Source: Methylobacterium sp. (lineage in GTDB: Bacteria > Pseudomonadota > Alphaproteobacteria > Rhizobiales > Beijerinckiaceae). From it: a stretch of 64,000 bases of DNA. The notes under the pieces are model-generated. The model made no database searches. It was given only the letters and a program-made list of their open reading frames with translations, and had not been told where the DNA came from. The DNA lies in contig JADCBP010000004.1 in the NCBI GenBank assembly GCA_020253445.1, positions 62,001 through 126,000 of the forward strand, written 5' to 3'. Made by a program: the position numbers and the translations under genes. Positions 28,493 to 51,945 of the stretch are shown one piece after another (position 1 is the first letter of the stretch; the number at the start of each line of letters is the position of its first letter).

Positions 28493-28505
28493 GATCGGCT
28501 TCGCC

Positions 28506-31087: not shown

Positions 31088-31090
31088 GCC

Positions 31091-32008: not shown

Positions 32009-32031
32009 TTTCAATCGGGGAGGGACGACAG

Positions 32032-34310: not shown

Positions 34311-35213
34311 TCAGGCGTTGCCGGCTTTGCGCGTCGCCGTGACCAGATAGACGCCCGCGAGGATGATCAGCCCCGCAATCGCCTCGCGCGGCGCGATGGC
34401 CTCGCCGAGCAGAAGCGCGGAGAGGATCACCGCCCAGGCCGGCACGAGATAGCCGGTCATCGAGGCGCGCGTGGGCCCCAGCGCGCGGATCGCGATCATG
34501 TAGAGCACGATGGGGGCGGCGGTGGAGACCACACCCATCACCAGCACGAGGTGGACCTGCTGCGGCAGCGCGGCGAGGCTCGACGGACCGGGAATCGCCA
34601 TTGCCAGGCAGGAAGCGAAGATGCCGGACATCACTTGCTGGCCCAGGGCGAGGCGCTTCGGCTCGGCCACAGGCAACAAACGAACATAAATGTTTCCCAA
34701 AGCATAGCTGACGGCCACGCCGACCATCGCGGCGGCCGCCAGGGGGGTCGCGGCCTCGCCGAAGAGACGCGGACCAATCAGCAAGGCCACGCCGCCGAGG
34801 CCCACGAGAATGCCGAAAAGGCGGCGCGGGCTGATCCGCTCATCCGCGAAGAGCTGGCTCGCGATCAAGGCCGTGATCAGCGGTCCGCAAGCCTGGATCA
34901 TCGCGGCCTTGCCGGCGGGCAGGCTCTGCATCGCATAGGCCACGAGCAGGTTCGCGATCCAGCCATTGAGCGCGCCAAGGATCAGCCAGTCGAAAGCCTC
35001 GCGCTTCGAGCGCGGCAGCAGGTCCTGCCGCATCAGCGAAAACCACAGCAGCAACGTCAGCGCGCTCACCGCACCGCGCAGGGCCGCGAGCGTGATCGGG
35101 GGGAACGCGCCTGCCATCGCCTTGATGGTCGGGAAACTCAATCCCCAGAGAAAGGCCGCGAGCAGCATCAGCCCCAGGGCCTGCGCCGTCGAAAGCGGCG
35201 GACGGTCGCTCAC
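34311..35213 (-). CDS. EamA family (DMT) transporter
   Basis: 300 residues with ten predicted helices as two EamA repeats. Repeat 1 opens [20 protein letters not shown]; repeat 2 begins around [20 protein letters not shown], with the conserved [20 protein letters not shown] near the C-terminus. Probably exports a metabolite; substrate unknown. Its start overlaps the rimO stop by 4 bases, so it is third in a ridA-rimO-eamA operon. Confidence 0.88.
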
Positions 35214-36543: not shown

Positions 36544-36939
36544 TCAATCCGGAAGGCGGGCGGCGGTGACCTCAACCTCGACCTTGAATTCCGGCCGCGT
36601 GAAACCCGAGACGATCACGAGGGTCGAGGCGAAGGCGTCGCCGTTCACATAGCGGCTTCGCACCCGGCCATAAACCGGAAAATAGGCGCGATCGGTCACG
36701 AAGGCATTGAATCGCACCACATCCTGCAGGGTCATGCCGGCTTCGGCGAGGATGGCCCTGATGTTCTCGAAGCAGAGCACGGCCTGCGCTTCCACATCCT
36801 CGGGGATCACGTCATCCGGCCCGATGCCGAGCTGTCCCGAGGCAAAGACCAGCCGCGCGCCCGGCGGCACGGCGATGCCGTGGCTATAGGCGGCAAGCGG
36901 GGCGCGGATGGTCGCGGGGTTCAGTTTCTGGTGGGGCAT
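36544..36939 (-). CDS. RidA/YjgF family protein
   Basis: 131-residue chorismate-mutase-like trimeric fold. Recognisable are [20 protein letters not shown] and [20 protein letters not shown], then [21 protein letters not shown]. Canonical RidA hydrolyses reactive enamines via a conserved Arg in the RxxV region; this copy has [18 protein letters not shown], so the canonical activity is not certain and it may be an Rid-like subgroup member. GAGGA upstream supports ATG 36939. First gene of the operon with rimO. Confidence 0.85.
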
Positions 36940-36995
36940 GGTTGTCCTCAACGTCGTGCTCGGCGGGAAACTTCAGGCAGCCTGCCGGAAGTCGG

Positions 36996-37071
36996 GGGCC
37001 CTGGCCCGGGCATCCACGGCATCCCTTCTGTTTCAGGAGGAGGATGGCCGGAACAAGTCCGGCCATGACGG
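36996..37071. repeat. Palindromic intergenic element, copy 1
   Basis: GGGCC-type left arm CTGGCCCGGGCATCCACG and right arm GATGGCCGGAACAAG then TCCGGCCATGACGGG match the better-preserved element at 39932-40008. The right arm hairpin GGCCGGA-ACAAG-TCCGGCC is intact; the left arm is partly eroded. Lies between divergent ridA and the amidohydrolase. Confidence 0.8.
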
Positions 37072-37173
37072 GCGAGAAACCTGCCCTATCTAGCGCGCTT
37101 GCGAGCGTTTTGGAATCGCGCTTGCTAGGTGCCTGCATCCTCTTTCGCGTCATCCCTCCAGGAGCCCTGATCC

Positions 37174-38502
37174 GTGCCTGTCACTCTTCCCCAAAACTCC
37201 CGCTTCTGGTTGCGACAGGTGAGCCTGCCCCTCGCTCTCGTTGAGGGCGAGGGCTTCCCCGCGCATTTCACCGGCGATGCCTTCATCCGCGCCGCCATGC
37301 TGATCGCGGATGGAAAAATCGCACGCATCGTTGGGGAGCCCGTCGCGGATGCCGGGGAAGGGGAAAGCATCGATTGCGGCGGGAAAATCGTGCTGCCGCG
37401 CTTCGTCGACGTGCATACGCATCTCGACAAGGGGCATATCCATGCGCGTGCCGCAAACCCCGATGGCACCTTCTTCGGTGCGCTGACGACCGTCGCGGCG
37501 GATCGCGAGAAGAACTGGCAGGCCGAGGATGTGCGCGCAAGGATGGATTTCGCCCTGCGTTGCGCCTTCCACCATGGCACGGGCGCCATCCGCACGCATC
37601 TCGATAGCCTCGGCAAGCAATCGGACATCTCCTGGCCGGTTTTTTCCGAGATGCGCGAGGAATGGAAGGGACGGATTGAGTTGCAGGCCTCGGCGCTGTT
37701 TCCACTCTCGGCCGTATGGGAAGATCCGGCGGATTTCCGCAACATTCTCAAGAATGTCACGAAGCATGGCGGCATACTTGGCGCCGTGACGTATCGTGGT
37801 GATCCGCTCACCGACGAGGTGGACAAGGCGCTCGATGAATTCATCGATGCGGCCGAAGCCAATGGCCTCGAACTCGATTTCCACGTGGATGAGAGCGCGT
37901 CACCGGATGCGCGAAGCCTCGAGAAGATCGCGGATGCCGTCCTGCGCAAGAACTATCGCGGTCGCGTGCTCGCCGGGCATTGCTGCTCGCTCGCGCTGAT
38001 GGAGGACGCAGACCGCGCCCGCGTGACGAGCAAGCTCGCGGCGGCGAAGATCGCGGTCGTCTCGCTGCCGATGTGCAACATGTATCTGCAGGACCGGATT
38101 TCCGGCCGCACGCCACGCTGGCGCGGAGTCGCGCCGTTGCATGAGCTTGATGTTGCGGGCGTTTCCACCATGGTGGCTTCGGACAACACGCGCGATCCGT
38201 TCTATGCCTACGGTGATCTCGACGGGGTCGAGGTGTTTCGCGAGGCGACACGCATCCTGCATTTCGACCATGATTCCAGGCCGTGGCTCGAGAGCCTCAC
38301 CATTCGCCCCGCTGCGCAGATGGGTCTCGCCGATGCGGGGCGGCTGGCGCCCGGATTGCCTGCGGATTTCATCCTGTTTTCGGCCCGCACGCTCAATGAA
38401 TGGCTCTGCCGACCGCAGACCGATCGTCTTGTGTGGATCGGCGGCCAGGCGAGCAAGACAAGCCTGCCGGATTATGCTGAACTTGACCGTCTTTCTGCCT
38501 GA
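37174..38502 (+). CDS. Cytosine-deaminase-like amidohydrolase
   Basis: 442-residue TIM-barrel metal hydrolase. Metal ligands are visible as FVDVHTHLDKGHI (residues about 75-90), LDFHVDES near 225, LAGHCC near 265 and the Asp of MVASDNTRDPFYAYGD near 330. The HTHLDKG and SDNTRDPFYxYGD forms are typical of the cytosine/isocytosine/triazine deaminase branch. It should deaminate or hydrolyse a cyclic amidine or amide; the exact substrate is unknown. Starts at GTG 37174 and leads a three-gene (+) unit with the FAD oxidase 9 bases downstream. Confidence 0.87.
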   Translation: MPVTLPQNSRFWLRQVSLPLALVEGEGFPAHFTGDAFIRAAMLIADGKIARIVGEPVADAGEGESIDCGGKIVLPRFVDVHTHLDKGHIHARAANPDGTFFGALTTVAADREKNWQAEDVRARMDFALRCAFHHGTGAIRTHLDSLGKQSDISWPVFSEMREEWKGRIELQASALFPLSAVWEDPADFRNILKNVTKHGGILGAVTYRGDPLTDEVDKALDEFIDAAEANGLELDFHVDESASPDARSLEKIADAVLRKNYRGRVLAGHCCSLALMEDADRARVTSKLAAAKIAVVSLPMCNMYLQDRISGRTPRWRGVAPLHELDVAGVSTMVASDNTRDPFYAYGDLDGVEVFREATRILHFDHDSRPWLESLTIRPAAQMGLADAGRLAPGLPADFILFSARTLNEWLCRPQTDRLVWIGGQASKTSLPDYAELDRLSA

Positions 38503-38511
38503 GGAACCCTG

Positions 38512-39918
38512 ATGCGCTACGATATCGCCACGCTGAAATCCCGTCTCGGCGCCATCAGGACCGACGACAATCCCGCGATCCTCAAGCAGAAAAGCCGCGA
38601 TTTCTACTGGTATTCGCCGACCCTCAAGCGCCAGCTGGACCAGGTCATCGCGGATATCATGGTCATGCCCAAGAATCTGGACGAGCTGATCCATGTTCTG
38701 GCGACCTGTCATTCCCTCGGAATCCCGGTCACGCCGCGCGGCACGGGCACGGGGAATTACGGGCAGGCCATGCCGCTTTCGGGCGGCGTGCTGCTCGATC
38801 TCTCTGCGATGAACGCGGTGAAATCCATCGGCAATGGCCGGGTTGTCACCGAACCCGGCGCCATCCTCGCGGAGATCGACCACGAGACGCGGGAAAAAAG
38901 CGGGCAGGAATTGCGCCTCTCGCCTTCGACCTACCACACGGCGACGCTCGGCGGCTTCATCGCCGGCGGTTCGGGGGGCGTCGGTTCCATCCGTTGGGGC
39001 GGCTTGCGCGATTACGGCAACATCATCCGCCTGAAGGTCGTGACGATGGAGGCGAGCCCGCGCGTGCTCGAACTCACGGGCGACGACCTCCACAAGGTGA
39101 GCCACGCCTATGGGACCAACGGCATCATCGTGGAATGCGAGGTGCCGCTGGCGCCGGCTTACCCCTGGGTCGATGTGATCTTCGGCTTCGATGACCTGCG
39201 GCAGGCGACCGAATTCTCGAACAGCCTCGGCGAGCAGGATGGCCTCCTGCTGAAAGAACTCGCGGTGATCGCGGCCCCGGCGCCGCATGATTACTTCCTG
39301 CGCCATCGCAAGTTCCTGCCGCGCGACAAGCACGCCGTGGTGCTGATGGTCGCCGATTTCGCGCTTCTCCCGCTGCTCGCTTTCGCCAGGCGCTGGAAGG
39401 GCGCGGAGCTGCTGATGCGCTCCGACACCCTCGCGGACGACGAAAAGAAGGGCCTGCCGCCCGCCTTCGAACTCGCCTGGAACCACACGACCCTTCGGGC
39501 TTTGCGCGTCGATCCGGGCATCACCTATCTGCAGGTGCTCTATCCCTTCCCCAACCAGGTGGAGCTGGTGGAGAAGATCCACGCGCATTTCGGCGAGGAG
39601 GTCGCCTGTCACCTCGAATTCGTGAAATTCGACGGCAAGGTCACCTGCTTCGGCCTGCCTTTGGTGAAGTTCACCAGCGAGGAGCGGCTGGAGGAGATCA
39701 TGCGCATTCATGAGGAGATGGGCGCGCCGATCTTCAACCCGCATCGTTACACGCTGGAGGAGGGCGGAATGAAGCAGACCGACGAGATCCAGCTCGCCTT
39801 CAAGCGCGAGGCGGACCCGCAAGGGTTGCTCAACCCCGGCAAGATGATCGCCTGGGAGGACCCCAACTACGATTTCAGAAGCGGGAAGACATTCCTCTTC
39901 AAGGGGTTGGGCGGGTGA
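38512..39918 (+). CDS. FAD-linked oxidase (PCMH type), paralogue 1
   Basis: 468-residue flavoprotein of the glycolate oxidase/D-lactate dehydrogenase group. The FAD-binding PCMH domain covers residues 45-230 with VTPRGTGTGNYGQAMPLSGG and the glycine loop GGFIAGGSGGVGSIRWGG; the substrate/cap domain follows and the C-terminus has the LLNPGKMI motif. A close paralogue is encoded at 42028-43416 on the other strand and shares KSRD(F)(Y/F)WYSP, TGNYGQA and GGSGGVGS. GAGGAA lies just before ATG 38512. Probably oxidises the amidohydrolase product or a related hydroxyacid. Confidence 0.88.
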   Translation: MRYDIATLKSRLGAIRTDDNPAILKQKSRDFYWYSPTLKRQLDQVIADIMVMPKNLDELIHVLATCHSLGIPVTPRGTGTGNYGQAMPLSGGVLLDLSAMNAVKSIGNGRVVTEPGAILAEIDHETREKSGQELRLSPSTYHTATLGGFIAGGSGGVGSIRWGGLRDYGNIIRLKVVTMEASPRVLELTGDDLHKVSHAYGTNGIIVECEVPLAPAYPWVDVIFGFDDLRQATEFSNSLGEQDGLLLKELAVIAAPAPHDYFLRHRKFLPRDKHAVVLMVADFALLPLLAFARRWKGAELLMRSDTLADDEKKGLPPAFELAWNHTTLRALRVDPGITYLQVLYPFPNQVELVEKIHAHFGEEVACHLEFVKFDGKVTCFGLPLVKFTSEERLEEIMRIHEEMGAPIFNPHRYTLEEGGMKQTDEIQLAFKREADPQGLLNPGKMIAWEDPNYDFRSGKTFLFKGLGG

Positions 39919-39931
39919 ATTTTCGCGTTTC

Positions 39932-40008
39932 CGTCATGCCCGGGCTTGGCCCGGGCATCCACGACTTCTCCCAAGATGTGGATGGCCGGAACAAGTCCGG
40001 CCATGACG
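39932..40008. repeat. Palindromic intergenic element, copy 2 (complete)
   Basis: 77 bases bounded by CGTCATG and CATGACG. Two internal hairpins: GCCCGGGC-TTG-GCCCGGGC (39938-39956) and GGCCGGA-ACAAG-TCCGGCC. They are linked by ATCCACGACTTCTCCC and AAGATGTGGAT, which also partly pair. This is the kind of paired-hairpin dispersed element seen in Rhizobiales intergenic regions. Sits between FAD oxidase 1 and the oxidoreductase within one operon. Confidence 0.88.
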
Positions 40009-40027
40009 TGGCGGCCGGGGCCTTCGC

Positions 40028-40615
40028 ATGAAGATCCTTCTCGTCTATTGCCACCCGAACCCCGAGAGCTTCACCGCCGCCGTGAAGGCCGCGGCGGTGG
40101 AAACGCTGCAACGCAACGGCCATGAGGTTGATATCATCGACCTTTACGCCGAGGGCTTCGACCCCGTGATGAGCCGCGAGGAGCGCAGCGGTTATCACAC
40201 ACGCGGCGAGAACCGCGTGCCTGTCGCGAGCCATCTTGATCGCGTGAAGGCGGCCGACGGGCTGCTCTTCGTCTACCCGACCTGGTGGTATGCGCAGCCC
40301 GCCATGCTCAAGGGCTGGCTCGAGCGCGTGCTGATCCCGCACGAGACCTTCACGATGCCCGAGGGCAACCAGCCCATTCGCGGGCTGATGACGAATATCC
40401 GCTTCCTTGGCGTGCTGACCTCGCTCGGTTCGCCGAAATGGTGGTGGTGGATCATGGGCATGCCCGGTAGGCGCATCCTGCTCACGGGCATCCGCGCGCT
40501 CTGTGCGCCGCGCTGCAGGACGCTCTGGCTCGCGCTCCACCGCATCGATGTGGTGGGCGAGGAGGCGCGCAAACGCCATCTGGAGCGGGTGCGGGAGGTC
40601 TTGGGCAAATTGTGA
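40028..40615 (+). CDS. Flavodoxin-fold NAD(P)H oxidoreductase, paralogue 1
   Basis: 195 residues with the NQO1/MdaB/KefF-like flavodoxin fold: KILLVYCHPNPESFTAAVK at the N-terminus, EVDIIDLYAEGFDPVM and DGLLFVYPTWWYAQPAMLKG with the FMN/FAD-phosphate contacts. Such enzymes reduce quinones or act as two-electron flavin reductases. A same-length paralogue lies at 41444-42031 on the opposite strand. It may recycle electrons for the neighbouring FAD-linked oxidase, which is inference. Confidence 0.87.
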   Translation: MKILLVYCHPNPESFTAAVKAAAVETLQRNGHEVDIIDLYAEGFDPVMSREERSGYHTRGENRVPVASHLDRVKAADGLLFVYPTWWYAQPAMLKGWLERVLIPHETFTMPEGNQPIRGLMTNIRFLGVLTSLGSPKWWWWIMGMPGRRILLTGIRALCAPRCRTLWLALHRIDVVGEEARKRHLERVREVLGKL

Positions 40616-40616
40616 C

Positions 40617-40648
40617 GCGTCACGGTCGGACCAAGCCCGGCCAGGACC
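40617..40648. repeat. Possible degenerate third copy of the palindromic element
   Basis: CGTCACGGTCGGACCAAGCC then CGGCCAGGACC resembles one hairpin arm (CGTCATGGCCGGA...TCCGGCCATGACG) of the 77-base element with several substitutions. It lies between convergent genes. Weak similarity, judged by eye. Confidence 0.4.
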
Positions 40649-40653
40649 TTGTG

Positions 40654-41442
40654 TCAGGCCAACCGGCTCAGCGGGAATTTCGCCACATCTTCCAGCAACT
40701 CGATGAAACGATCGGTCTGGAATTCGACGGCCTGCCGGCCTTTCTCGGCGGTGGCGAGATGCGCTTCGCCCGCGACGCCCTCAGGATGATTATCCTCCGC
40801 AATCCAGGCCATGGAGGTGAAGCCGGTGACGCGCAACTGCTTGTATTCCTGCGCATATGAAATCGAATTCGGCACGAAATCGACCGCTTTCGACATGTCC
40901 ACGCGGTTCGGGGCGAAATGCAGCATCACGCTTGTTTCAAAATCGCCGCCATGGATGCCGTAATTGTTCTCGATCTCCGAGAACAGGCCAGCCGGCACGC
41001 CGAGCCGCCGCCACGCGGTCTGCGCCACAAGCATCTGGCAACGCACGCGCAATTCCCGCGCCACGATGCCCTGCACCTCAACATTCCCGCCATGCGAATT
41101 GACGATGACGAGCTTGCGCAAGCCCGCGCGCGCGACGCTCTCGCCGATCTCCGTCCAGGCGGAAATGAGGGTGTGCGCGGTAAGCGTCACCGTGCCGGGA
41201 TCGCGCAGGTGCTCGTTCGATTTCCCCACATTCTGCACCGGCAGGAAGAGCACATCGAGATGCGCCGGCAGCTTCTTCATCACGGTGTCACACATGCCCT
41301 GCGCGATGATCGAATCCGTGCCGACCGAGAGATGCGGCCCGTGCTGCTCGGTCGCGGCGATGGGGAGAACGACCACCGTCTTTTCCGGGTCAAGCGTCTG
41401 GAAATCCCGCGATGTCAGGTCGAACCAGTGAAGTTTGCGCAT
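40654..41442 (-). CDS. Creatininase family hydrolase
   Basis: 262-residue member of the creatinine amidohydrolase fold. Metal site IAATEQHGPHLSVGTDSI near residues 28-45 (Glu, His, Asp ligands) and the second site LVIVNSHGGNVEVQG near 110-125, with GIHGGDFETS near 185. The family includes creatininase, formamide deformylase ArfB and MftE peptidase, so the reaction is a ring- or amide-bond hydrolysis of unknown substrate. The gene starts 1 base after the stop of oxidoreductase 2, in a three-gene (-) unit. Confidence 0.87.
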   Translation of the reverse strand: MRKLHWFDLTSRDFQTLDPEKTVVVLPIAATEQHGPHLSVGTDSIIAQGMCDTVMKKLPAHLDVLFLPVQNVGKSNEHLRDPGTVTLTAHTLISAWTEIGESVARAGLRKLVIVNSHGGNVEVQGIVARELRVRCQMLVAQTAWRRLGVPAGLFSEIENNYGIHGGDFETSVMLHFAPNRVDMSKAVDFVPNSISYAQEYKQLRVTGFTSMAWIAEDNHPEGVAGEAHLATAEKGRQAVEFQTDRFIELLEDVAKFPLSRLA

Positions 41443-41443
41443 G

Positions 41444-42031
41444 TTACCTCAGCGAAGAGAGCTCGGTCGTGACTCGCGCGAGAAACGCCTTTCGTTGCGC
41501 CTCCGTCGCGACATTCATGTGGTAGAGCGCGCAATAGCGGATGCGCGCGCCCGGCGCCACGAACCAGCGCAGATAGCGCGTGATCATCTTGCGGGGCGGG
41601 TTGCCGACCAGGAAGGCGCGCAGGCGGTCACGGCCATAGGTCGAGATGCCCACGACATGCCGGATATGCTGGAGCATGGGGCGCGGCTTGCCGGGAACAG
41701 ACAGATCGAAGGTGATGCCCGGACCGAAGATGCGATCGAAGAACCCCTTGAGCATCGCCGGGAAGCCGAAGCACCAGGTCGGGAACTGCACCACCAGCGC
41801 CTCGGCGTGATAGAGCCGATCGATATAGCCCTCGATCCCTTTCCGGTTGAGCGAGAGGTCATGGTAATCCCGGCGCATCTCGGCCGTGAGAACGGGCTGG
41901 AAGCCTTCGGCATAGAGGTCGCAGAGATCGACCTCATGGCCGTTCGCGCGCAAGGCGGCGATGCCCGCATCGCGGATCGCCGCATGGAAGCTCTCTTCCA
42001 GCGGATGGCAATAGAGATAGAGAATTCTCAT
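41444..42031 (-). CDS. Flavodoxin-fold NAD(P)H oxidoreductase, paralogue 2
   Basis: 195 residues, same length and layout as the protein at 40028-40615: RILYLYCHPLEESFHAAIR, EVDLCDLYAEGFQPVL and EALVVQFPTWCFGFPAMLKG. Divergence is clear (perhaps a third to a half identical by eye), so the duplication is not recent. Its start overlaps the stop of FAD oxidase 2 by 4 bases, indicating coupling. Confidence 0.87.
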   Translation of the reverse strand: MRILYLYCHPLEESFHAAIRDAGIAALRANGHEVDLCDLYAEGFQPVLTAEMRRDYHDLSLNRKGIEGYIDRLYHAEALVVQFPTWCFGFPAMLKGFFDRIFGPGITFDLSVPGKPRPMLQHIRHVVGISTYGRDRLRAFLVGNPPRKMITRYLRWFVAPGARIRYCALYHMNVATEAQRKAFLARVTTELSSLR

Positions 42032-43416
42032 GCTTTCACAGGCACGTAGCTCTTCATCTTGCCGGGGTTCAGAAGACCATAGGGGTCGATCTCGGCCTTG
42101 AACCCGGCCTGATCGGCATCCACGCGCTTGTGGCGCGAGCCATCCTCCAATGAAATCACATGCGGGTTGGCGATCATCACGCCATGGGCCTCATGCGCGT
42201 TGATGATGTCGTAGAGCCGCTCCTTCGTGGTGTAGCGGATGACGGGCAGGGCGCTCGCCGAGAGGTTGCCGCCAAAGCGGATGAACTCGCAATGCGGGAT
42301 GAGTTCTTCCGGGAACATCGCGGCCGTCTCGAGGATCGATTCGCGCACGCGATCATGCGGATAGAGGCACTGGAGATAGGTGACCGAGCGATCCGCCTTC
42401 AGCATCTGCAGCGTCGTGTGGTTCCAGGTATATTCGTAGAGCGGAACCGAGCCGGCTTCCTCGCGCGTCGGCGTTTCCAGCGTGATCATGCCGCCCAGCG
42501 GCTCGACGATGTCGCGGAAGCTTTCGAGCGAGGCCTCGGCGATCATGCAGGCGAGGATATGCTTGCCCTCGGGGCAACAGGGCTTCAGCTGGCCGAAATA
42601 ATCGGGCAGGGGCCAGGCGATGCCGCTCATCAGCTTCTTGACCACGCCATCAGCCTTCGCGGCGGCGAACCCGGCATCCAGCAGCTTCGCGAAATCATCG
42701 AAGGCGACAATCACATCATGCCAGGGCCAGGCCGGCGCGAGCGGCATTTCGAGCGCCGTGATGATGCCCGTCGTGCCATAGGCGCGGTTGATCTTCTGGG
42801 CGGCATCGCCCCGAAGTTCGATGATGCGGGGTTCATCCTCCACGGTCACGATCCGCGCGGCGAGGATGTTGCCGGGCTCCCGCAGCCCGCCATAGGTGAC
42901 GGAACCCACGCCGCCCGATCCGCCGGCGACGAAGCCGCCGATGGTCGCCGTGCGCTTTGTGGAGGGGTGGAGGCGGATTTCCTGCCCGGATGGCTTCAAT
43001 TCCTGATCGAGCTTGCCCATGAGCAGGCCCGCGCCGCAGCGCACGCGGCCCGGCTTCACCCATTCGATCCCGGCGAAATTCGTCATGTCGAGCAGCACGC
43101 CGCGCTCCATCGGCACGGCCTGACCGTAATTGCCGGTGGCGCCGCCGCGCGGGGTGATCGGCACGCGATGCCTGACGCAGGCCCGCACCAGCGTGACGAG
43201 ATCGGCCTCGTGGCGCGGAGAAACAAAGATATCCGCGCTTTTCTGCGCCAGCTCCTCGTTGAGAATCGGCGAATACCAGAAGAAATCGCGGCTTTTCTTC
43301 CGCACCACCTTCTCTTCCGTCACCACCGGCACATCGCCGATTTCGGCCAGGACCGCCTCGATGGCGGCGGGCAGGGCGGGATTCTCGGCGGAGACTTTTC
43401 GCGCAGGAACATTCAT
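42028..43416 (-). CDS. FAD-linked oxidase (PCMH type), paralogue 2
   Basis: 462-residue flavoprotein paralogous to the one at 38512-39918. Same blocks: VVRKKSRDFFWYSP, ITPRGGATGNYGQAVPMERG, SGQEIRLHPSTKRTATIGG and FVAGGSGGVGSVTYGG; the C-terminus again has LLNPGKMK. It has a longer N-terminal extension (about 35 residues) than paralogue 1. It leads the (-) unit oxidase-oxidoreductase-creatininase and is divergent from the ABC importer genes. Confidence 0.88.
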   Translation of the reverse strand: MNVPARKVSAENPALPAAIEAVLAEIGDVPVVTEEKVVRKKSRDFFWYSPILNEELAQKSADIFVSPRHEADLVTLVRACVRHRVPITPRGGATGNYGQAVPMERGVLLDMTNFAGIEWVKPGRVRCGAGLLMGKLDQELKPSGQEIRLHPSTKRTATIGGFVAGGSGGVGSVTYGGLREPGNILAARIVTVEDEPRIIELRGDAAQKINRAYGTTGIITALEMPLAPAWPWHDVIVAFDDFAKLLDAGFAAAKADGVVKKLMSGIAWPLPDYFGQLKPCCPEGKHILACMIAEASLESFRDIVEPLGGMITLETPTREEAGSVPLYEYTWNHTTLQMLKADRSVTYLQCLYPHDRVRESILETAAMFPEELIPHCEFIRFGGNLSASALPVIRYTTKERLYDIINAHEAHGVMIANPHVISLEDGSRHKRVDADQAGFKAEIDPYGLLNPGKMKSYVPVKA

Positions 43417-43599
43417 CGGTCGACGCTTTCCATGGAACCGGGAAGCCGGCTTCTACTGTCGTGACAGGATAGCAAGCCTGGTGCCGCCGGCCAGTGCCTT
43501 TATGCAGGCTCATCCCCTGAAATCCGCATTCGCCAATTGCAGTCTGTCCAATCCCGCGCCATCCTGCTTGCGCCCTGGGCAGGAGGCACCCATCGCCGC

Positions 43600-43654
43600 G
43601 CCGCACTTTGTGCGGCACGGGCATTGCAGCGTTTGACCAGCGCCCGATATCGGG
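43600..43654. promoter_or_regulatory. Two palindromes in the divergent oxidase/importer promoter region
   Basis: GCCGCAC-TTT-GTGCGGC (43600-43616) is a perfect 7-bp inverted repeat, and CCCGATATCGGG (43643-43654) is a perfect 12-base palindrome, 41 bases before the binding-protein ATG. Either may be an operator for an unseen regulator; no regulator gene is in this cluster. No TPP or other riboswitch core was recognised in the 278-bp gap. Confidence 0.4.
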
Positions 43655-43694
43655 AGAAGACGGCGAACCAGAAGCCCTAACGGAGACCGGACCC

Positions 43695-44723
43695 ATGATG
43701 ATGAAATATCGCCTGAACCGTCGTGCCGCGCTTGGCCTGCTGGGCGGCTCGGCCGCTTCCGTTCTCGTGCCCATGACGGGCAGCCGCGTGAACGCCCAGA
43801 GCCTCGACAAGGTCAGCTATCAGACCAACTGGCGCGCTCAGGCCGAGCATGGCGGCTTCTATTTTGCCGTCGCCAACGGCATCTACAAGAAATATGGCAT
43901 CGACGCGGATATCCGCATGGGCGGCCCGCAGCAGAACCCCTCGCAGCTGCTGCTCGGCGGCCGCGTGGACATGATCATGTCCAATTCCTTCGAGGCCATC
44001 CGCTATGTCGAGGAGAAACTGCCGTTCCTCTGCATCGCCTCGATCTTCCAGAAGGACCCGCAGGTCATCATCTGCCATCGCGGCGTGGGCAATGACAGTT
44101 TCGAGCAGCTGAAGGGCAAACCGATCCTCGTGGGCGGCGCGGGCCGCACCTCCTACTGGCCATTCCTCAAAGCGAAGTTCGGCTATTCGGATGACCAGAT
44201 CCGCCCCTACACCTTCAACATGGCGCCGTTCCTCGCCGACAAGAACATCTGCCAGCAGGGCTTCCTCTCTTCCGAGCCTTTCGCGATCCAGAAGGAAGGC
44301 GGGGTCGATCCGCTGGTGCACCTGATCGCCGATGCGGGCTTCGCCAACTACAACACCACAATCAACATCTCCCGGAAGATGGTGGACGAGAAGAAGGACC
44401 TCGTGCAGCGCTTCGTGACCGCCTCGCTCGAGGGCTGGGCCGCCTACATGAAGAACGGTCCCGAGAACGCCGCCGCCAACGCGCTCATCAAGCGCGACAA
44501 CCCGGACATGACCGACGAGAAGATCGCCTATGCGATCAAGGTGATGAATGAGAAGGGCATCGTGATGTCCGGCGATGCGCTGAAGCTCGGCGTCGGCGCG
44601 ATGACCGACGAGCGCTGGGCTTCCTTCTACAAGGACATGCATGCCGCAGGCGTCTTCCCCGCGAATATCGACGTCAGGAAGGCCTATGATCTTTCCTTCA
44701 TCAACAAGGGCGTCGGCGTCTGA
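43695..44723 (+). CDS. NMT1/THI5-like ABC substrate-binding protein
   Basis: 342 residues with a Tat-type signal ([18 protein letters not shown]) and the NMT1 fold: [43 protein letters not shown] and [19 protein letters not shown]. Relatives bind pyrimidine precursors of thiamine, riboflavin or other aromatic and sulfonate ligands. ATG 43695 is preferred (GGAG at 43682-43685); ATGs at 43698 and 43701 are equivalent. The stop overlaps the ATPase start by one base. Confidence 0.88.
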
Positions 44724-45538
44724 TGGCTTTGGCCCAGGGCACGGGCGTGGATACGGGGCGGGCGGCAAGAAAGCCGCTCGTCTCGGTCCGCGGCCTCTCG
44801 AAGAAATTCTCGAACGGCACCCTCGCCTTGCGGGACGTGGATCTCGACCTCCATGCGAGTGAATTCGTGAGCCTGCTCGGCCCCTCGGGCTGCGGGAAAT
44901 CGACCCTGCTGCGGCTGATCTCCGACCTCTCCCAGCCCTCCGCCGGCTCGATCGACTGGCCGGGAGCGACGAGTGCGGATGCCCGGGGACGGCCCGAGCA
45001 CAGCCTCGGCTTCGTCTTTCAGGAGCCGACGCTTCTGCCCTGGGCGCAGACGCTTGACAATGTCACGCTGCCCCTTCGCCTCAAGAAGATGAACCGCACG
45101 GAGGCCGACCAGCGTGCCGCCGCGATGCTCGAACTCGTGGGCCTCAAGGGGTTCGAGAAGAGCTATCCGCGCGAACTCTCCGGCGGCATGAAGATGCGTG
45201 TCTCGATCGCCCGCGCGCTGGTGACGGAGCCGAAGGTGCTGCTGATGGACGAGCCCTTCGCCGCGCTCGACGAGATCACCCGCCACAAGCTCAATGATGA
45301 CCTGCTGATGCTCTGGCAGCGCAACCGCTTCACGGCGGTGTTCGTCACCCATTCGGTGTTCGAGAGCGTCTATCTCTCCGAGCGCATCGTCGTGATGGCC
45401 GCGCGGCCGGGACGCGTGATGAGCGAACTCATCGTGGATGCGCCTTTCCCGCGCGACAACCTGTTCCGCACCTCGCCCGAATATGCGCATCTCTGCCGCC
45501 TCGGCTCGGAAGCTCTGAAAAAGGCCATCGACGCATGA
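44723..45538 (+). CDS. ABC importer ATPase (SsuB/TauB/ThiZ type)
   Basis: 271-residue nucleotide-binding protein: Walker [11 protein letters not shown]-loop [12 protein letters not shown], signature ELSGGMKMR, Walker [14 protein letters not shown] and the H-loop [10 protein letters not shown]. The QEPTLLPW and SGGMKMRV forms belong to the nitrate/sulfonate/HMP-pyrimidine group. Begins in the last base of the binding-protein stop and overlaps the permease by ATGA. Confidence 0.92.
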
Positions 45539-46413
45539 GCGAAACCACGCTTGCTCCCGCCGCCGCGCGCGGCACCGATCAGGAGACCGCTCCGGTCTTT
45601 GCCGAAGAGGCGCGCATCCTGGGGATTGCCAGGAGCCGCTGGCCGGACATTCTCGCGCCGATCCTCGTCGGCATTCTCATCATCGGGTTGTGGGAATGGG
45701 TGGTCCGATACAAGAACATTCCTTCCTATCTGTTTCCCGGCCCGCTGGTGATCGCGCAGACGCTGGTGCAGGACTGGCATACCCTGTCGGGCGCGCTCTG
45801 GATCACGCTGCGCATCACCTTTGCCGCGCTGATCGCGGCGGTGAGCGTTGGCGTGGCCCTGGCCATCCTCTTCACGCAGTCGAAATGGCTGGAGCGCTCG
45901 CTTTTTCCCTACGCCGTCATCCTGCAGGTGACGCCCGTTGTGGCGATCGCGCCGCTGATCATTATCCTGGCGGAGGATGTGAACCTGTCGCTGCTGATCT
46001 GTGCCTGGATTGTTGCCTTCTTTCCGATCCTCTCGAACACCATCCTGGGGCTGAATTCCGCGGATCACAATCTCGTCTCGCTGTTCCAGCTTTATGGCGC
46101 GAACCGCTGGCAGACGATGCGTTATCTGCGCCTGCCGGCTTCGCTCCCGTATTTTCTCGGCGGGCTGAAGATTTCGGGTGGCCTCGCGCTCATTGGCGCG
46201 GTGGTGGCGGAATTCGTGGCCGGTTCGGGCGGCTCGGCCTCGGGCCTCGCCTATCGCATTCTCGAAAGCGGCTACCAGCTCAAGATCCCGCGCATGTTCG
46301 CGGCCCTGCTGCTGATCTCGCTCTCGGGCATCGCGATCTTCCTGGCGACAAGCTGGCTCTCGCATCGCCTGCTGCATCGTTGGCACGAGAGCGCGCTGAA
46401 GCGCGAGAGCTGA
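45535..46413 (+). CDS. ABC importer permease (SsuC/ThiX type)
   Basis: 292 residues with about six helices and the BPD_transp_1 coupling loop around [20 protein letters not shown], then [20 protein letters not shown]. The first ~40 residues are a cytoplasmic extension. Completes the importer with the binding protein and ATPase. Converges on ccoS with 9 bases between stops. Confidence 0.9.
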
Positions 46414-46422
46414 AAATACGCC

Positions 46423-46587
46423 TCAGCGCTTCGCGTCATCAGGCAGGTCATCGTCATCGAGGATGACCCTCCAGGAGGCACCCTCGATATCCTCGAATTG
46501 CCGCGTCTTCAGCGACCAGAGGAAGGCACCGAGACCCAGGGCGCCCATGGCCAGGGCCATGGGGATGAGGATCACGAGGATGTTCAT
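46423..46587 (-). CDS. ccoS: cbb3 oxidase maturation protein CcoS
   Basis: 54-residue single-helix membrane protein required for haem and copper insertion into CcoN. Sequence begins MNILVILIPMALAMGALGL, continues GAFLWSLKTRQFEDIEGAS and ends with an Asp-rich tail, the standard CcoS pattern (WSxxxxQFxDxxG). Its start overlaps the ccoI stop by 4 bases. Very short but unambiguous. Confidence 0.93.
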   Translation of the reverse strand: MNILVILIPMALAMGALGLGAFLWSLKTRQFEDIEGASWRVILDDDDLPDDAKR

Positions 46588-48794
46588 GGGCTTTCTCCAC
46601 CGAATCGTGCGCGCATCGCGTTCATGGTGACGATCAGCGACGAACCAGACATGGCGATCGCCGCGACGAAGGGGGTCGCGAGGCCGGCAATCGCGATCGG
46701 AACCGCCACGGCGTTGTAGATGACCGCGAGCCAGAGATTCTGCGTCATCAGGCGGCGCGCTTTCCGCGCGATGCGGATCGCATCCGCCACCGGGCCGAGC
46801 GAAGCGCCCATGACCAGCAGATCGGCCTGTGCCTGCGCGAGGTCCGTGGCCGAGACGGGCGAGATCGAGACATGCGCGGCGGCGAGGGCAGGGGCATCGT
46901 TGATGCCATCGCCCACCATCAGCACCTTCCGGCCCTGCTGACGCAGTTCCTCAAGTCGCGCGACCTTGCCGCCGGGCTCGACGCTTGCCTGCCAATGATC
47001 GATGCCCAGGGCCTTCGCCACGCTCGCGACCGGGATCTCGCGGTCGCCCGAAAGGATTTCAACCGAGAGTCCAAGACCCTTCAAGGCCTCGATGGTGGCG
47101 CGGGCATCGGCCCGCAGGGGCTGGCGGATCGCGAAGACCGCCACATCCGTGCCGCAGCGCATGGCGATGAGCGACGCCTCGGGATAGGCTTCCGAAACCG
47201 CCTTGGCTTCCGCTTCCGCCCCGCAGAAGGCCGGCGAGCCGAGGCGGATCTTCACGCGGGTATCCTCGGCTTCAAGGCCCTGTCCGGGCGTTTCGCGCAC
47301 GTCGCGGAACGGGTTGTCGGCGCCGCCGGCCTTGGCGATGGCCACCGCCAGGGGGTGGCGCGACGACAGAGCCAGCCGGCCGGCGATGGTCAGCAGGCGA
47401 TCCGGGATCTCCTTGCGGTTGGCGATGACCGGCTCCGGCAGGGTGAGGGTGCCGGTCTTGTCGAAGACGACGGTATCCACCTCGGCAAGCCGCTCCAGCG
47501 CGTCACCGGCATGGAGCAGGATCGAGCGGCGGAACATCGCGCCCGAGGCCACGACCTGCACGGCGGGAATCGCGAGGCCCAGCGCGCAGGGGCAGGTGAT
47601 GATGAGCACCGTGACGGAGATCAGCAGCGCCGATTGCCAGGACAGGCCCCAGAGCACCCAGCCGATGAAGGTCAGCGCCGCCGCAGTATGCACCACCGGC
47701 GCATAGGCCCGCGCGGCGCGGTCCGCGAGGCGCACATAACCCGCGCGCTTCTCGGTGGCATGGGCGAGCAGCGCCTCGATGCGCGCGAGCAAAGTGCTCG
47801 CCGAGGCATGGCGCACCCGGATTTCCAGGCTTCCCGAGAGGTTCATCGTGCCGGCATGCACATCCATGCCCGGCTGCACGGCCTGATGCGCGGTCTCCCC
47901 GGTCACGAGGCTCTGGTCGATATCGGAGGTGCCGCGCTCGATCAGGCCATCGACGCCGATCCGCTCGCCGGGGCGCACCAGCACGAGCTGGCCGGGCTCG
48001 ACCGTCGCGGCGGCGACTTCCTTCAGCACGCCATCCGGCAGGATGCGCGTGACGGTCTCCGCGCGGAGCGCCGCGAGGTTCGAGGCCACGGCGCGCGTGC
48101 GGCGCATCATCATCTGATCGAGCACGCGGCCGATCAGCAGGAAGAAGATGAGCATCACCGCGCCGTCGAAATAGGCGTGCTCGCCCGATTGCAGCGTCTC
48201 CCAGACCGAAATGCCCAGGGCGAGCAGGATGCCGAGCGAGATCGGCACATCCATGTTCACGGCGCGCGCCTTCAGCGAGCGGATGGCGCTGTCGAAGAAG
48301 GGGCGACCGGAATAGGCGGCGGTTGGCAGCGCGATCAGCGCGGAAATCCAGTGGAAGAAGTCACGCGCCTCGCGCGAGAGCCCGGTCTCGTTGCCGGACC
48401 AGACCGAAACCGAAAGGAGCATGATGTTCATCATCGCGAAGCCCGCGACGCCGAGCGCGCGCAGAAGCCGCTGCTCCTCGGCCTTCTCGCTGGCCTCGCG
48501 CTCGGCCACGCGGAAAGGGTAGCCGGTGAAGCCCAGGGCTTCGAGCCGCGCCAGCACCTGCGGGGGGTCCACCCGTCTCGCATCCTTCCATTCGACCGTG
48601 AGGCGCTTCTCGGTGAGGTTCACGCGTGCCAGAGCCATGTCCGGCTCCGATGCGAAGGCGCGTTCGATGCGCGCCGCACAGGCCGCGCAATGGATGCCAT
48701 CCACCACGAAATCCATCCGCACCCGATCTTCGGGCGCGGGGGTGAGATAATGCGAGAAGTCGCGGATATCCGGGTGCGGCAGAACCGTGCTCAT
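46584..48794 (-). CDS. ccoI: cbb3 assembly copper-translocating P-type ATPase CcoI
   Basis: 736-residue P1B ATPase supplying copper to the cbb3 active site. An N-terminal metal-binding domain has CxxC in GIHCAACAARIE (about residue 35), the membrane copper site is TCPCALGLAIP, the phosphorylation motif is FDKTGTLTLPE and the hinge is GDGINDAPALAAA. Overlaps ccoH by 4 bases. Also called fixI in rhizobia. Confidence 0.95.
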   Translation of the reverse strand: MSTVLPHPDIRDFSHYLTPAPEDRVRMDFVVDGIHCAACAARIERAFASEPDMALARVNLTEKRLTVEWKDARRVDPPQVLARLEALGFTGYPFRVAEREASEKAEEQRLLRALGVAGFAMMNIMLLSVSVWSGNETGLSREARDFFHWISALIALPTAAYSGRPFFDSAIRSLKARAVNMDVPISLGILLALGISVWETLQSGEHAYFDGAVMLIFFLLIGRVLDQMMMRRTRAVASNLAALRAETVTRILPDGVLKEVAAATVEPGQLVLVRPGERIGVDGLIERGTSDIDQSLVTGETAHQAVQPGMDVHAGTMNLSGSLEIRVRHASASTLLARIEALLAHATEKRAGYVRLADRAARAYAPVVHTAAALTFIGWVLWGLSWQSALLISVTVLIITCPCALGLAIPAVQVVASGAMFRRSILLHAGDALERLAEVDTVVFDKTGTLTLPEPVIANRKEIPDRLLTIAGRLALSSRHPLAVAIAKAGGADNPFRDVRETPGQGLEAEDTRVKIRLGSPAFCGAEAEAKAVSEAYPEASLIAMRCGTDVAVFAIRQPLRADARATIEALKGLGLSVEILSGDREIPVASVAKALGIDHWQASVEPGGKVARLEELRQQGRKVLMVGDGINDAPALAAAHVSISPVSATDLAQAQADLLVMGASLGPVADAIRIARKARRLMTQNLWLAVIYNAVAVPIAIAGLATPFVAAIAMSGSSLIVTMNAMRARFGGESP

Positions 48795-49384
48795 GGGGTG
48801 ATCCCCCGGATGGACTCGTCCTTCAGGGCCAGGCGATGGCGCGAGAGGAAGAGCCGCTCGCCGCTTTCGAGATCATGCGCCTCGATCACGAGGCCCCAGC
48901 CGCCGGCATCAATCCCGTCGAGCTTCGCCGTATAGTAGCCGTCCCCGCGCGGGGAGAGCGTGATGGCCCGGTCGCGACCGCGCTGCGCAGGATGCTGCAG
49001 AACAACCGTCACGGCGAGGCCGGCCAGCGGCTTGCTCATGCTGTCACGGAAGCGGATCTCGAGGTCGAGCACGCGGTTGGCGAGCGAGACCCTCGCATCG
49101 CTCTGCCAGCCGCGCCGTGCCTGGGCTTGCGCCGCGGCCAGTTCCTGCCGGTTGAAATTCTGGCTCACATCATAGCCGTTGCGCGCATCAAGCCCCGGCA
49201 TGGTGCGGATCGCAGTGGTCATCATGAAGACATTCACGCTCGCCACCACCGCGAAGAAGGCGATAAGCATCGCCAGCACATGCCAGCCCGTGAGACGGAA
49301 CTCTTTCGCCTTCCGGGCGGCAAGGATCGGGGCGCGTTCAGGCAGTTCCACCGGCATCGAAAAGGCTCCGCAGCAGCTAGTCAT
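48791..49384 (-). CDS. ccoH: cbb3 accessory protein CcoH/FixH
   Basis: About 197 residues. One membrane helix (LTGWHVLAMLIAFFAVVASVNVFMMTTAI) followed by a periplasmic domain with GYDVSQNFNRQ and the Ig-like FixH fold. Needed for assembly or stability of cbb3 oxidase. Start uncertain: ATG 49384 (MTSCCGAF) with GGGGA upstream, or ATG 49399, both overlapping ccoG. The TSCCG start with paired cysteines is worth noting as a possible metal ligand. Confidence 0.9.
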   Translation of the reverse strand: MTSCCGAFSMPVELPERAPILAARKAKEFRLTGWHVLAMLIAFFAVVASVNVFMMTTAIRTMPGLDARNGYDVSQNFNRQELAAAQAQARRGWQSDARVSLANRVLDLEIRFRDSMSKPLAGLAVTVVLQHPAQRGRDRAITLSPRGDGYYTAKLDGIDAGGWGLVIEAHDLESGERLFLSRHRLALKDESIRGITP

Positions 49385-50885
49385 CCCGTCTTTCCCCATG
49401 GCGCGCCCCTCTGGACCGCCGGGAATCGTCTCCGTCAGGACCGAAGAAGTTCTCCCGGATCACGCGACTGTCGTCGAGAGCGGCATCGGTCGCCTTGATC
49501 TGAATCATCGTTTTCCCGCCTTCGAAGGCGTGGCGCGGCACCGTGACGAGAAGCCGCACGTCGAGTGTCTGGTCCGGGCCGATCTCGAAGGAGAGGGGTT
49601 GGCCAGGAATGGATTTCACGCCGATGAGTTCGGCGGAGGCGCCCGGCACGCCATCGACCGCCACCGCGAAGATCCGCGCCTCGGGCCGCTTGTTGGCAAG
49701 GCGCAGGGTATAGTTGTTGCGCACCGAACCATCGCGCAGCACCGTGAAGAGCGGAGAGCGCTCGTGGATCGCGCTGATATCCATCATGGACCGCGTGGCC
49801 AGCGCGTAGATCATGGTCATGGCGACAGCCGCGATCACCCCGACATAGAGCAAGGTGCGAGCCCGGATGAGCCGGATGGGCGGAGGCGTGTTGCCGCATG
49901 CGCGCGCCGTGATCGCCTGTTCGGTATCATAGCCGATGAGCCCGGTAGGGCGGTTGATCTTGGTCATCACCGTGTCGCAGGCATCGATGCAGAGCCCGCA
50001 CTGGATGCAGCCGAGTTGCGCGCCGTCGCGGATATCGACGCCCGTGGGGCAAACCGCCACGCATTGGTTGCAATCGATGCAATCCCCGGCCGGCTCGCCG
50101 GTGGCCTTCGCCTTCGTGGCCTGCTTCAACGACATGCGCGGATCGCCGCGATCATGGCGATAGGCGACATTGAGTGCATCCGCATCGGTCAAGGCGGCCT
50201 GAATGCGCGGCCAGGGGCACATGTAGAGGCAGACCTGCTCACGCATGAAGCCGGCGAGCGCATAGGTCGTGAAGGTGAGGATGCCGATCCAGAGATAGGC
50301 GACGAAGGGCGCCTGAAAGGTCGCAAGATCGCGCACGAGGGTCGGCGCATCCGAAAAGTAGAGCACCCAGGCGCCGCCGGTCCACCAGGCGATCATCACC
50401 CAGACGAAATGCTTGAGGATCTTCAGGCCCCAGGTCTTGCCGACCCAGGGGGCGGCGTCGCGCTGCATGCGCTCGCGCCGGTCGCCCTCGATGAGCCGCT
50501 CGACCTGGAGAAACAGGTCGGTCCAGACCGTCTGCGGGCAGAGATAGCCGCACCAGATGCGGCCCGCGACCGCGTTCATCAGGAACAGGATCAGCGCCGC
50601 GAGGATCAAGAGGCCGGTGAGGTAGTAGACCTCCTGCGGCCAGATCTCGATGAAGAAGAAATAGAAGCGGCGCGCCGGCATATCCACCAGAACCGCCTGG
50701 TTCGGCAGATGGGGCCCACGATCCCACCGCACGAAGGGAAGAAGATAATAGACGCCGAGACAGAGGATCAGCAGCGTCCACTTGATGCGCCGGAAAGTGC
50801 CCGACACCCCCTGCGGATAGATTTTCTTCGAGGCCTCGTAGAGCGGGGCTTCGTCGTCATAATCCGCAGGGCTGTGGGTGTTCAC
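49377..50885 (-). CDS. ccoG: cbb3 accessory copper/ferredoxin-type protein CcoG/FixG
   Basis: 502 residues: several helices, RIWCGYLCPQTVWTDLF, a polyferredoxin region with CIDCNQCVAVCPTG and GCIQCGLCIDACD (two 4Fe-4S motifs near residues 260-300), one later helix, and a C-terminal periplasmic Ig-like domain. Acts as a cupric reductase in cbb3 assembly in studied species. Overlaps ccoP by 4 bases. Confidence 0.95.
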   Translation of the reverse strand: MNTHSPADYDDEAPLYEASKKIYPQGVSGTFRRIKWTLLILCLGVYYLLPFVRWDRGPHLPNQAVLVDMPARRFYFFFIEIWPQEVYYLTGLLILAALILFLMNAVAGRIWCGYLCPQTVWTDLFLQVERLIEGDRRERMQRDAAPWVGKTWGLKILKHFVWVMIAWWTGGAWVLYFSDAPTLVRDLATFQAPFVAYLWIGILTFTTYALAGFMREQVCLYMCPWPRIQAALTDADALNVAYRHDRGDPRMSLKQATKAKATGEPAGDCIDCNQCVAVCPTGVDIRDGAQLGCIQCGLCIDACDTVMTKINRPTGLIGYDTEQAITARACGNTPPPIRLIRARTLLYVGVIAAVAMTMIYALATRSMMDISAIHERSPLFTVLRDGSVRNNYTLRLANKRPEARIFAVAVDGVPGASAELIGVKSIPGQPLSFEIGPDQTLDVRLLVTVPRHAFEGGKTMIQIKATDAALDDSRVIRENFFGPDGDDSRRSRGARHGERRDD

Positions 50886-51775: not shown

Positions 51776-51778
51776 GGT

Positions 51779-51934
51779 TCAGTCCTCTTCCAGGGGAAGG
51801 CGCGCGGCGTTCTCGAACTTGGCTTGGTTCTTGGGCCAGAGCGCGTAGATGCAGACGGCGAGGAAGATCGCCATGAAGTAGAGAACACCGACGGATTGCG
51901 CGATGTTCGCAAGGAAGGCGTACATATTGGCCAT
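51779..51934 (-). CDS. ccoQ: cbb3 oxidase small subunit CcoQ
   Basis: 51 residues, one membrane helix: MANMYAFLANIAQSVGVLYF, then MAIFLAVCIYALWPKNQAKF and an acidic end (LPLEED). The YALWPKN segment just after the helix is typical of CcoQ. Between ccoO and ccoP, 11 bases from ccoO and 3 from ccoP. It modulates oxidase stability in studied species. Confidence 0.92.
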   Translation of the reverse strand: MANMYAFLANIAQSVGVLYFMAIFLAVCIYALWPKNQAKFENAARLPLEED

Positions 51935-51945
51935 GTGCCTCTCCC

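Follow-up and report, generated by a model that had tools for sequence, protein, structure and literature searches.

A set of ten genes at positions 36544-46413 of the stretch of DNA analysed here (the window: 64,000 nucleotides of a Methylobacterium sp., contig JADCBP010000004.1, from a source genome of 3.3 Mb in 18 contigs) encodes two flavoproteins, OxA and OxB, two flavodoxin-fold reductases, RedA and RedB, an amidohydrolase of deaminase type, a hydrolase of the creatininase superfamily, a RidA-family protein, and an ATP-binding cassette (ABC) importer with its own periplasmic binding protein (SBP). Two related modules have come together at this locus, and the mirror image formed by their genes on the two strands is the junction between them, not a duplication. 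As a whole, the cluster probably, though far from certainly, serves to break down pterins, pteridines of which folate fragments are an example, and has been assembled from these two modules.

The locus had been described before, in a sequence-only reading of the interval 37174..46413, as two facing oxidase-oxidoreductase modules with two hydrolases and an importer. Open reading frames and Pfam matches confirm the nine genes named there, with their positions and strands. The paralogy claimed for the two pairs is borne out as well: OxA and OxB are 42% identical over 445 residues (E 2.5e-111), and the two 195-residue oxidoreductases, RedA and RedB, are 38% identical over 195 (E 2.7e-48), values that mark both pairs as true paralogues. 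The RidA gene, though outside that interval, belongs to the set.

Conservation of the gene neighbourhood

A scan with an OxA alignment, one genome per species, returned at least 584 relatives, of which the 80 best-scoring were kept, so that the sample leans to close relatives. Counts were made on the 67 loci whose flanks reach 7 kb or more before OxA and 2.5 kb or more after it; 13 loci with short flanks were excluded. The deaminase gene stands directly upstream of OxA in all 67 loci and a reductase gene directly downstream in 65, with two tandem reductases behind one oxidase in 24. ABC genes were matched anywhere in the locus in 54 and upstream, on the same strand and within 5 kb, in 49; RidA was found in 52 and a creatininase homologue in 43, while deaminase, reductase, ABC genes, RidA, and creatininase homologue were all present in 42. 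Conservation of this neighbourhood is far beyond chance.

The co-occurrence of these families was also followed in other genomes, and the set recurs in alpha-, beta-, and gammaproteobacteria. In annotated records it is found, with varying completeness, on Rhizobium and Agrobacterium plasmids, in Palleronia and Alloyangia (Rhodobacterales), in Roseateles and a Comamonadaceae bacterium, and in Klebsiella and Pantoea; the hosts of similar gene sets are thus soil, plant-associated, and enteric bacteria. The Comamonadaceae locus (L174) carries in one stretch a TetR regulator, a reductase, the deaminase, the creatininase homologue, SBP, ATPase, permease, flavoprotein, and RidA. At E 1e-60, a relative of the OxA/OxB type occurs in 32 of 398 genomes spread over the phylum, and one member of the window's own genus (G515) gave no match of this type at that threshold. 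Among the matches listed, the closest named OxA loci belong to a Hyphomicrobiales metagenome-assembled genome (93%) and to Rhabdaerophilum sp. SD176 (85%). The gene order of the window recurs in L037-L040, without RedB in L052, and rearranged in L055. CobD and an aminotransferase, conserved near Mesorhizobium loci (L064), are taken as lineage synteny.

The deaminase and a characterised pterin deaminase

The window amidohydrolase scores above the cut-off of the PRK07583 model, whose NCBIfam name is cytosine deaminase, and its nearest solved structures carry the same name. It is 24.5% identical to E. coli CodA, whose metal and catalytic residues His61, His63, His214, Glu217, His246, and Asp313 are all kept in the window protein and, in that order, in 91, 91, 91, 90, 91, and 90 of 91 other deaminases. 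In CodA, cytosine is held by Gln156, Asp314, and Trp319, with Gln156 and Trp319 in contact with it. These pocket residues, in contrast, are replaced: Asp314 by Asn in all 91 and Trp319 by Phe in 90 of the 91 other deaminases, and Gln156 by Ile, Val, or Leu in 83, the window protein having Leu, Asn, and Phe at Gln156, Asp314, and Trp319. One divergent row (L139) retains Gln156 in the alignment, but without the catalytic Glu and Asp. The replaced pocket rules out a true cytosine deaminase. The window protein is 52% identical to a Rhizobium deaminase (L033).

A 399-residue pterin deaminase acting on folate and pteroate was cloned from Variovorax sp. F1 by You et al. in 2022, with primers at the deaminase start and in a downstream endoribonuclease (RidA) gene (PMC9513972). 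In the part of that source available, deaminase and carboxypeptidase G are the only enzymes described, and a figure of 36-37% identity is given for Arad3529 of Agrobacterium radiobacter; the words FAD, oxidoreductase, gene cluster, and creatinin- are absent from its main text (PMC9513972). In one betaproteobacterial genus, 54 of 61 genomes hold a deaminase relative, and five loci of a second deaminase paralogue (roughly 40%) and two of the first were examined. The five second-paralogue loci contain a creatininase homologue, ATPase, permease, flavoprotein, SBP, Flavodoxin_2 reductase, VanB-type reductase, and TetR regulator, a cluster standing tail to tail with the deaminase and RidA genes.

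Read in reversed order, the RidA-side primer matches the RidA start perfectly (0 mismatches) in L202 and L204 and has 1 mismatch there in each of L199, L203, and L205. For the start primer, the site at the deaminase start differs at 2 positions in L204, at 5 in L202, and at 4 in L205. The primers span 1.2 kb in these last three loci, where the deaminases have 397-398 residues. The best matches in 20 unrelated control loci had 5 mismatches for the RidA-side primer, 4 for the start primer, and 6 for the deaminase-end primer; a pattern search of 299 genomes with the primers gave three sites, none in a deaminase by translation. We conclude that loci of this type very probably encode the deaminase characterised from Variovorax sp. 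F1.

For the L204 deaminase, the best model is PRK07583 (347.5 bits, below the cut-off of 403), the next reaching 146.6 bits, and all three deaminases with a start site have Leu, Asn, and Phe at the CodA pocket positions in common with the window protein. Pterin deaminases of the Variovorax sp. F1/Arad3529 kind would resemble that protein in best model, adjacent RidA gene, and pocket signature, and the Variovorax one also in the kinds of neighbours found in the primer-matching genus, but identity to the window protein is only 37-39%. Compared with that of L204, the deaminases of L033 and L064 show 35-36% identity, close to the figure for Arad3529, which may for this reason be of the window deaminase's own group.

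Flavoproteins, electron donors, and the creatininase homologue

OxA and OxB are of the same family as a dehydrogenase containing flavin adenine dinucleotide or flavin mononucleotide (FAD/FMN) with solved structures in PDB (6v42/6v43). The homology is near full-length, covering residues 4-466 of OxA and 19-456 of OxB, with 65% identity to OxA and 48% to OxB. These entries, which we take to have been deposited as a flavin oxygenase of folate catabolism, an assumption on which the claim does not rest, are named in none of the open papers searched. Both window proteins fall below the NCBIfam cut-offs of all models matched. The electron donor beside the flavoprotein varies, being Flavodoxin_2 in alphaproteobacterial loci, a VanB-type protein in Klebsiella and Pantoea, and a 2Fe-2S protein in Roseateles; the betaproteobacterial genus with the primer sites has both a Flavodoxin_2 and a VanB-type reductase. 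From the partner gene in 65 of 67 loci, the flavoprotein is a putative two-component flavin oxygenase.

The creatininase homologue has metal and catalytic residues in common with the creatininase/MftE/IolN/ArfB superfamily, and Glu34, His36, Asp45, His120, His178, and Glu183 are kept in 71 of 71 homologues, window included. Tyr121, Glu122, Trp154, Trp174, and Asp175 are creatininase's own pocket residues. Tyr121 and Glu122 are Gly in all 71 homologues, and the window protein has Gly, Gly, Arg, Tyr, and Gly at the five positions. It scores 95.6 bits against an NCBIfam cut-off of 235 for creatininase and lies below the cut-offs of the four models matched; a true creatininase is ruled out by the pocket residues.

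Origin of the mirror-image layout

In the sequence-only reading, the mirror image was put down to an ancient inverted duplication. The symmetrical layout and the 42% and 38% identities of the two pairs favour such a duplication, within this lineage, of one oxidase-reductase cassette, but phylogeny makes it hardly credible. In a tree of 49 oxidase rows, near-identical ones removed, OxA orthologues form one clade (29 rows; Shimodaira-Hasegawa-like approximate likelihood ratio test, SH-aLRT, 100), OxB a second (98), and a third paralogue, OxC, another (99), the OxA and OxB clades each spanning several families. RedA and RedB lie on opposite sides of an older split in the reductase tree (SH-aLRT 97): RedA groups with the distal reductases of OxA operons and the single reductases of some of them, and RedB, together with reductases of OxB loci, makes up a group of four rows (99) that neighbours the proximal reductases of OxA operons. 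Forcing the window's OxA and OxB together costs 340.6 log-likelihood units (p of the approximately unbiased test, p-AU, 0.000167), and forcing RedA and RedB together costs 128.6 (p-AU 3.7e-5). Neither the two oxidases nor the two reductases are therefore each other's nearest relatives; a much older duplication giving OxA and OxB is possible.

In six Phreatobacter-type genomes of one family, an OxB locus lies away from OxA and holds OxB, an importer, OxC, and a creatininase homologue, with RedB in five of the six. The window's importer proteins are 72-80% identical to those of these six loci, against 40-52% (SBP), 54-66% (ATPase), and 48-68% (permease) for OxA operons. OxA and OxB stand together in six named loci (L037, L038, L039, L040, L052, and L055), where OxB is 69-88% identical to the window's. 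Module A consists of RidA, deaminase, OxA, and RedA, and module B of RedB, OxB, the importer, and, probably, the creatininase homologue, which joins that of an OxB-kind locus (L122) at SH-aLRT 90 only and whose module membership is accordingly weak; the SBP tree gives no clear grouping. Since the modules are separate loci in other genera and together here, the mirror image is their junction, read as that of a module A that lost its importer with a module B that brought one.

Flavoproteins of the OxC clade (L122 13320-14657 and relatives) are found beside OxB importers in Phreatobacter-type genomes, where in L125 a nitrilase-family hydrolase adjoins, and also beside OxA operons in L095, L126, L127, and L131.

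A proposed pterin route and its alternatives

In the pterin route proposed, the NMT1/THI5-type ABC importer would take in a pterin, and the PRK07583 amidohydrolase would strip its 2-amino group, turning it into a lumazine-type compound. OxA and OxB, each with its own flavodoxin-fold reductase using NAD(P)H (reduced nicotinamide adenine dinucleotide or its phosphate), would work as two-component flavin oxygenases, oxidising the dione ring or opening it, on the model of RutA with RutF and uracil. The amide so formed would be hydrolysed by the creatininase-fold metalloenzyme, reactive enamine or imine products would be removed by RidA, and the two modules would serve different pterins or successive steps. 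For the window proteins themselves, we infer the substrate, the oxygenase chemistry, the order of steps, and the division of pterins or steps between A and B.

The analogy is with the Rut pathway of E. coli, in which RutA with RutF opens the uracil ring, and which combines a flavin oxygenase and separate reductase with the RidA protein RutC, a hydrolase, and a RutR-type regulator. The likeness is one of logic only: RutA is a different flavoprotein, RutB is an isochorismatase, and to our knowledge the pathway has neither a deaminase nor an ABC importer. Two of the three TetR proteins tested near related loci, in Alloyangia and Roseateles, are RutR/YcdC-like (PF08362), and that of a Rhizobium locus is not; regulators of this type fit a dione effector. 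The nearest PDB match of the SBP is a formylaminopyrimidine-binding protein (3ix1, E 1.1e-8).

The sequence-only reading survives in part. Its proposal of a dedicated N-heterocycle pathway with an importer, with pterin among the candidates, is supported by the recurrence of the set and by the fit of primers of a characterised pterin deaminase; the inverted duplication does not hold at this locus. Its statement that no described pathway has this gene set agrees with our searches of open papers, which found none, and yet a first enzyme has been described (PMC9513972) and the structure of the flavoprotein family solved (6v42/6v43). A bolder view is conceivable, though we incline slightly against it: that the loci encode an undescribed, widespread pterin-mineralising pathway made up of an importer, a pterin deaminase, flavin oxygenases of a novel class, and a ring amidase with the creatininase fold. 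The oxygenases might then have a vanillyl-alcohol-oxidase fold with interchangeable electron donors, in rhizobia, Variovorax-like bacteria, Klebsiella, and Pantoea, and in the window's genus two versions of the pathway, each for its own pterin oxidation state or side chain, might run in parallel, merged behind one importer.

Several observations weigh against the assignment to pterins. The RidA-side primer fits only when reversed; in its printed order, no site with 6 or fewer mismatches was found. The start primer has 6 mismatches at its L203 site and, in L199, none of its three best sites at the deaminase start; alone it is weak, as 4-5 mismatches also arise in controls. L199 alone has a site for the deaminase-end primer, at 5 mismatches against 6 in controls, and the genus is taken as Variovorax from primer fit alone. 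The Variovorax-type deaminase is 30% identical to CodA versus 37% to the window protein, and the deaminase tree, its forks open, does not join the two to the exclusion of CodA. A single-sequence AlphaFold model of OxA reached a predicted local distance difference test score (pLDDT) of 36.7 and was not used. In L137 and L139, both of them OxB loci, identity to the window's importer is just 37-55%, no closer than in OxA operons, so that the importer is not tied to OxB everywhere. Related clusters, moreover, contain 2-oxoglutarate-dependent (2OG-Fe(II)) oxygenases (Klebsiella, R. leguminosarum pRL11, and OxB locus L139), in L139 together with a Rieske protein; these proteins are unexplained by the pterin route and may indicate other or wider substrates.

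A route built in the same way, from a deaminase, a flavin oxygenase and its reductase, RidA, and an amidase, would also suit a pyrimidine, such as thiamin-derived aminopyrimidines or modified cytosines. The relatives of the SBP with solved structures include thiamin-pyrimidine binders, RutR-like regulators occur as described, the nearest solved deaminases are named cytosine deaminase, and the 2OG-Fe(II) oxygenases of related clusters are of the DIOX_N kind, which recalls thymine hydroxylase. This substrate is nevertheless rather unlikely, given the replacement of the cytosine-pocket residues of CodA in the window deaminase and its relatives and given that folate and pteroate are, according to the available part of its source, the substrates of the only characterised enzyme that has been linked to loci of this type (PMC9513972). 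A riboflavin/lumichrome route was rejected, as the lum pathway, in the available part of its source, has a P450, LumH/I/M, thiamin pyrophosphate enzymes, and a Rieske dioxygenase, a gene set different from the window's (PMC12752717).

A further possibility concerns the flavoproteins. OxA and OxB could simply be FAD-dependent dehydrogenases or oxidases like GlcD or vanillyl-alcohol oxidase, with an alcohol side chain as their target and the flavodoxin-fold proteins as quinone reductases of a side branch; they contain FAD_binding_4 and resemble GlcD and D-lactate dehydrogenase, and both reductases resemble NQO1/NQO2. We regard this as unlikely but deserving attention: a reductase adjoins OxA in nearly every locus counted, and a VanB-type reductase or 2Fe-2S protein accompanies the flavoprotein in other taxa, a constant company of reductases or ferredoxins that an electron-consuming flavoprotein fits better, by context and not by chemistry. 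That the modules handle two unrelated substrates, as neighbours by chance or through shared regulation, with the importer serving module B alone, appears improbable. The Phreatobacter-type OxB locus is indeed apart from OxA and has its own importer, to which the window's is nearest, and the L125 OxB locus has a PRK09237-family amidohydrolase; but OxA and OxB are co-located in the six named loci with closely related OxB proteins, and module A in the window has no importer of its own beside it.

Gene content of the window and related loci

The ten genes of the set are listed in Table 1. For the SBP, an ATG near 43695, ahead of a Tat-like leader, appears by eye the likelier start.

Table 1. Genes of the set, with window positions and the matches on which each name is based
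Gene product	Positions	Strand	Basis
RidA-family protein (enamine/imine deaminase-like)	36544..36951	-	PF01042 Ribonuc_L-PSP, 79.8 bits; divergent from deaminase gene
Amidohydrolase of PRK07583 family, predicted pterin-type deaminase	37174..38502	+	NF005759, 570 bits (cut-off 403)
OxA, FAD_binding_4 flavoprotein of 6v42 family	38512..39918	+	PF01565; PDB 6v42/6v43, 686 bits
RedA, Flavodoxin_2 NAD(P)H oxidoreductase	40028..40615	+	PF02525; in tree on side of distal reductases of OxA operons
Creatininase-superfamily metallo-amidohydrolase	40654..41442	-	PF02633, 235 bits; without Tyr121, Glu122, Trp154, Trp174, Asp175
RedB, Flavodoxin_2 NAD(P)H oxidoreductase of OxB system	41444..42031	-	PF02525; tree
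OxB, second flavoprotein of 6v42 family, separate clade	42028..43416	-	6v42, 450 bits; tree
NMT1/THI5-type periplasmic binding protein (SBP)	43608..44723 (listed open reading frame)	+	PF09084, 83 bits
ABC transporter ATPase	44723..45538	+	PF00005
ABC transporter permease	45535..46413	+	PF00528; outside permease clade of OxA operons; nearest L122, 76%

A second importer, with an ABC ATPase, two permeases, and a binding protein of the BMP kind, was recognised by eye on the + strand at 28323-33108, about 3.4 kb left of the RidA gene; importers of this kind transport nucleosides or purines. An EamA transporter gene (34311-35213) was rejected as a member of the set, having a relative in only one of the 80 loci (L039); other EamA genes adjoin L041 and L054, the family of the former being present in 20 loci. 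Directly after the set, on the - strand at 46584-52713, a copper-type P-type ATPase, a CcoG-like ferredoxin protein, and cbb3 oxidase subunits were recognised by eye.

Related loci have neighbours of their own. On R. etli CIAT 652 pC (L035, 446-5796 and 18828-22078), the OxA operon is flanked by urea amidolyase, two isochorismatase-family hydrolases, and an amidase whose C-terminal domain is of the allophanate-hydrolase type, as though the nitrogen of the ring were released in the form of urea or allophanate. Methyl-accepting chemotaxis proteins are encoded near three loci (L125 6242-7912, L036 1063-2757, and L121 16566-18443), and the substrate may be an attractant. Facing the operon on a Klebsiella plasmid (L142 8693-13316) are genes for a LysR regulator, another binding protein, a PRK12393 amidohydrolase (822 bits, cut-off 543), and a 2OG-Fe(II) oxygenase. 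On R. leguminosarum pRL11 (L175 4306-10314), importer genes, a 2OG-Fe(II) oxygenase gene, and a LysR regulator gene accompany that of a deaminase with 41% identity to the window's, and no flavoprotein of the 6v42 kind is annotated in that stretch. The deaminase of R. johnstonii TP25 (L121 12697-13998) may be broken: located between the permease and the flavoprotein, it gives a match split in two, and no gene is annotated for it.

Significance

The breakdown of folic acid in the environment is incompletely worked out, and in the available part of the source the open question is how bacteria degrade the products of the first steps (PMC9513972). If the pterin reading is true, it would provide a concrete gene set for the ring-opening part of folate breakdown, in a family of at least 584 loci. 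It would also correct the frequent names cytosine deaminase and creatininase, now given to these proteins by distant resemblance, and would bring forward an unusual flavoprotein family with changing electron donors.

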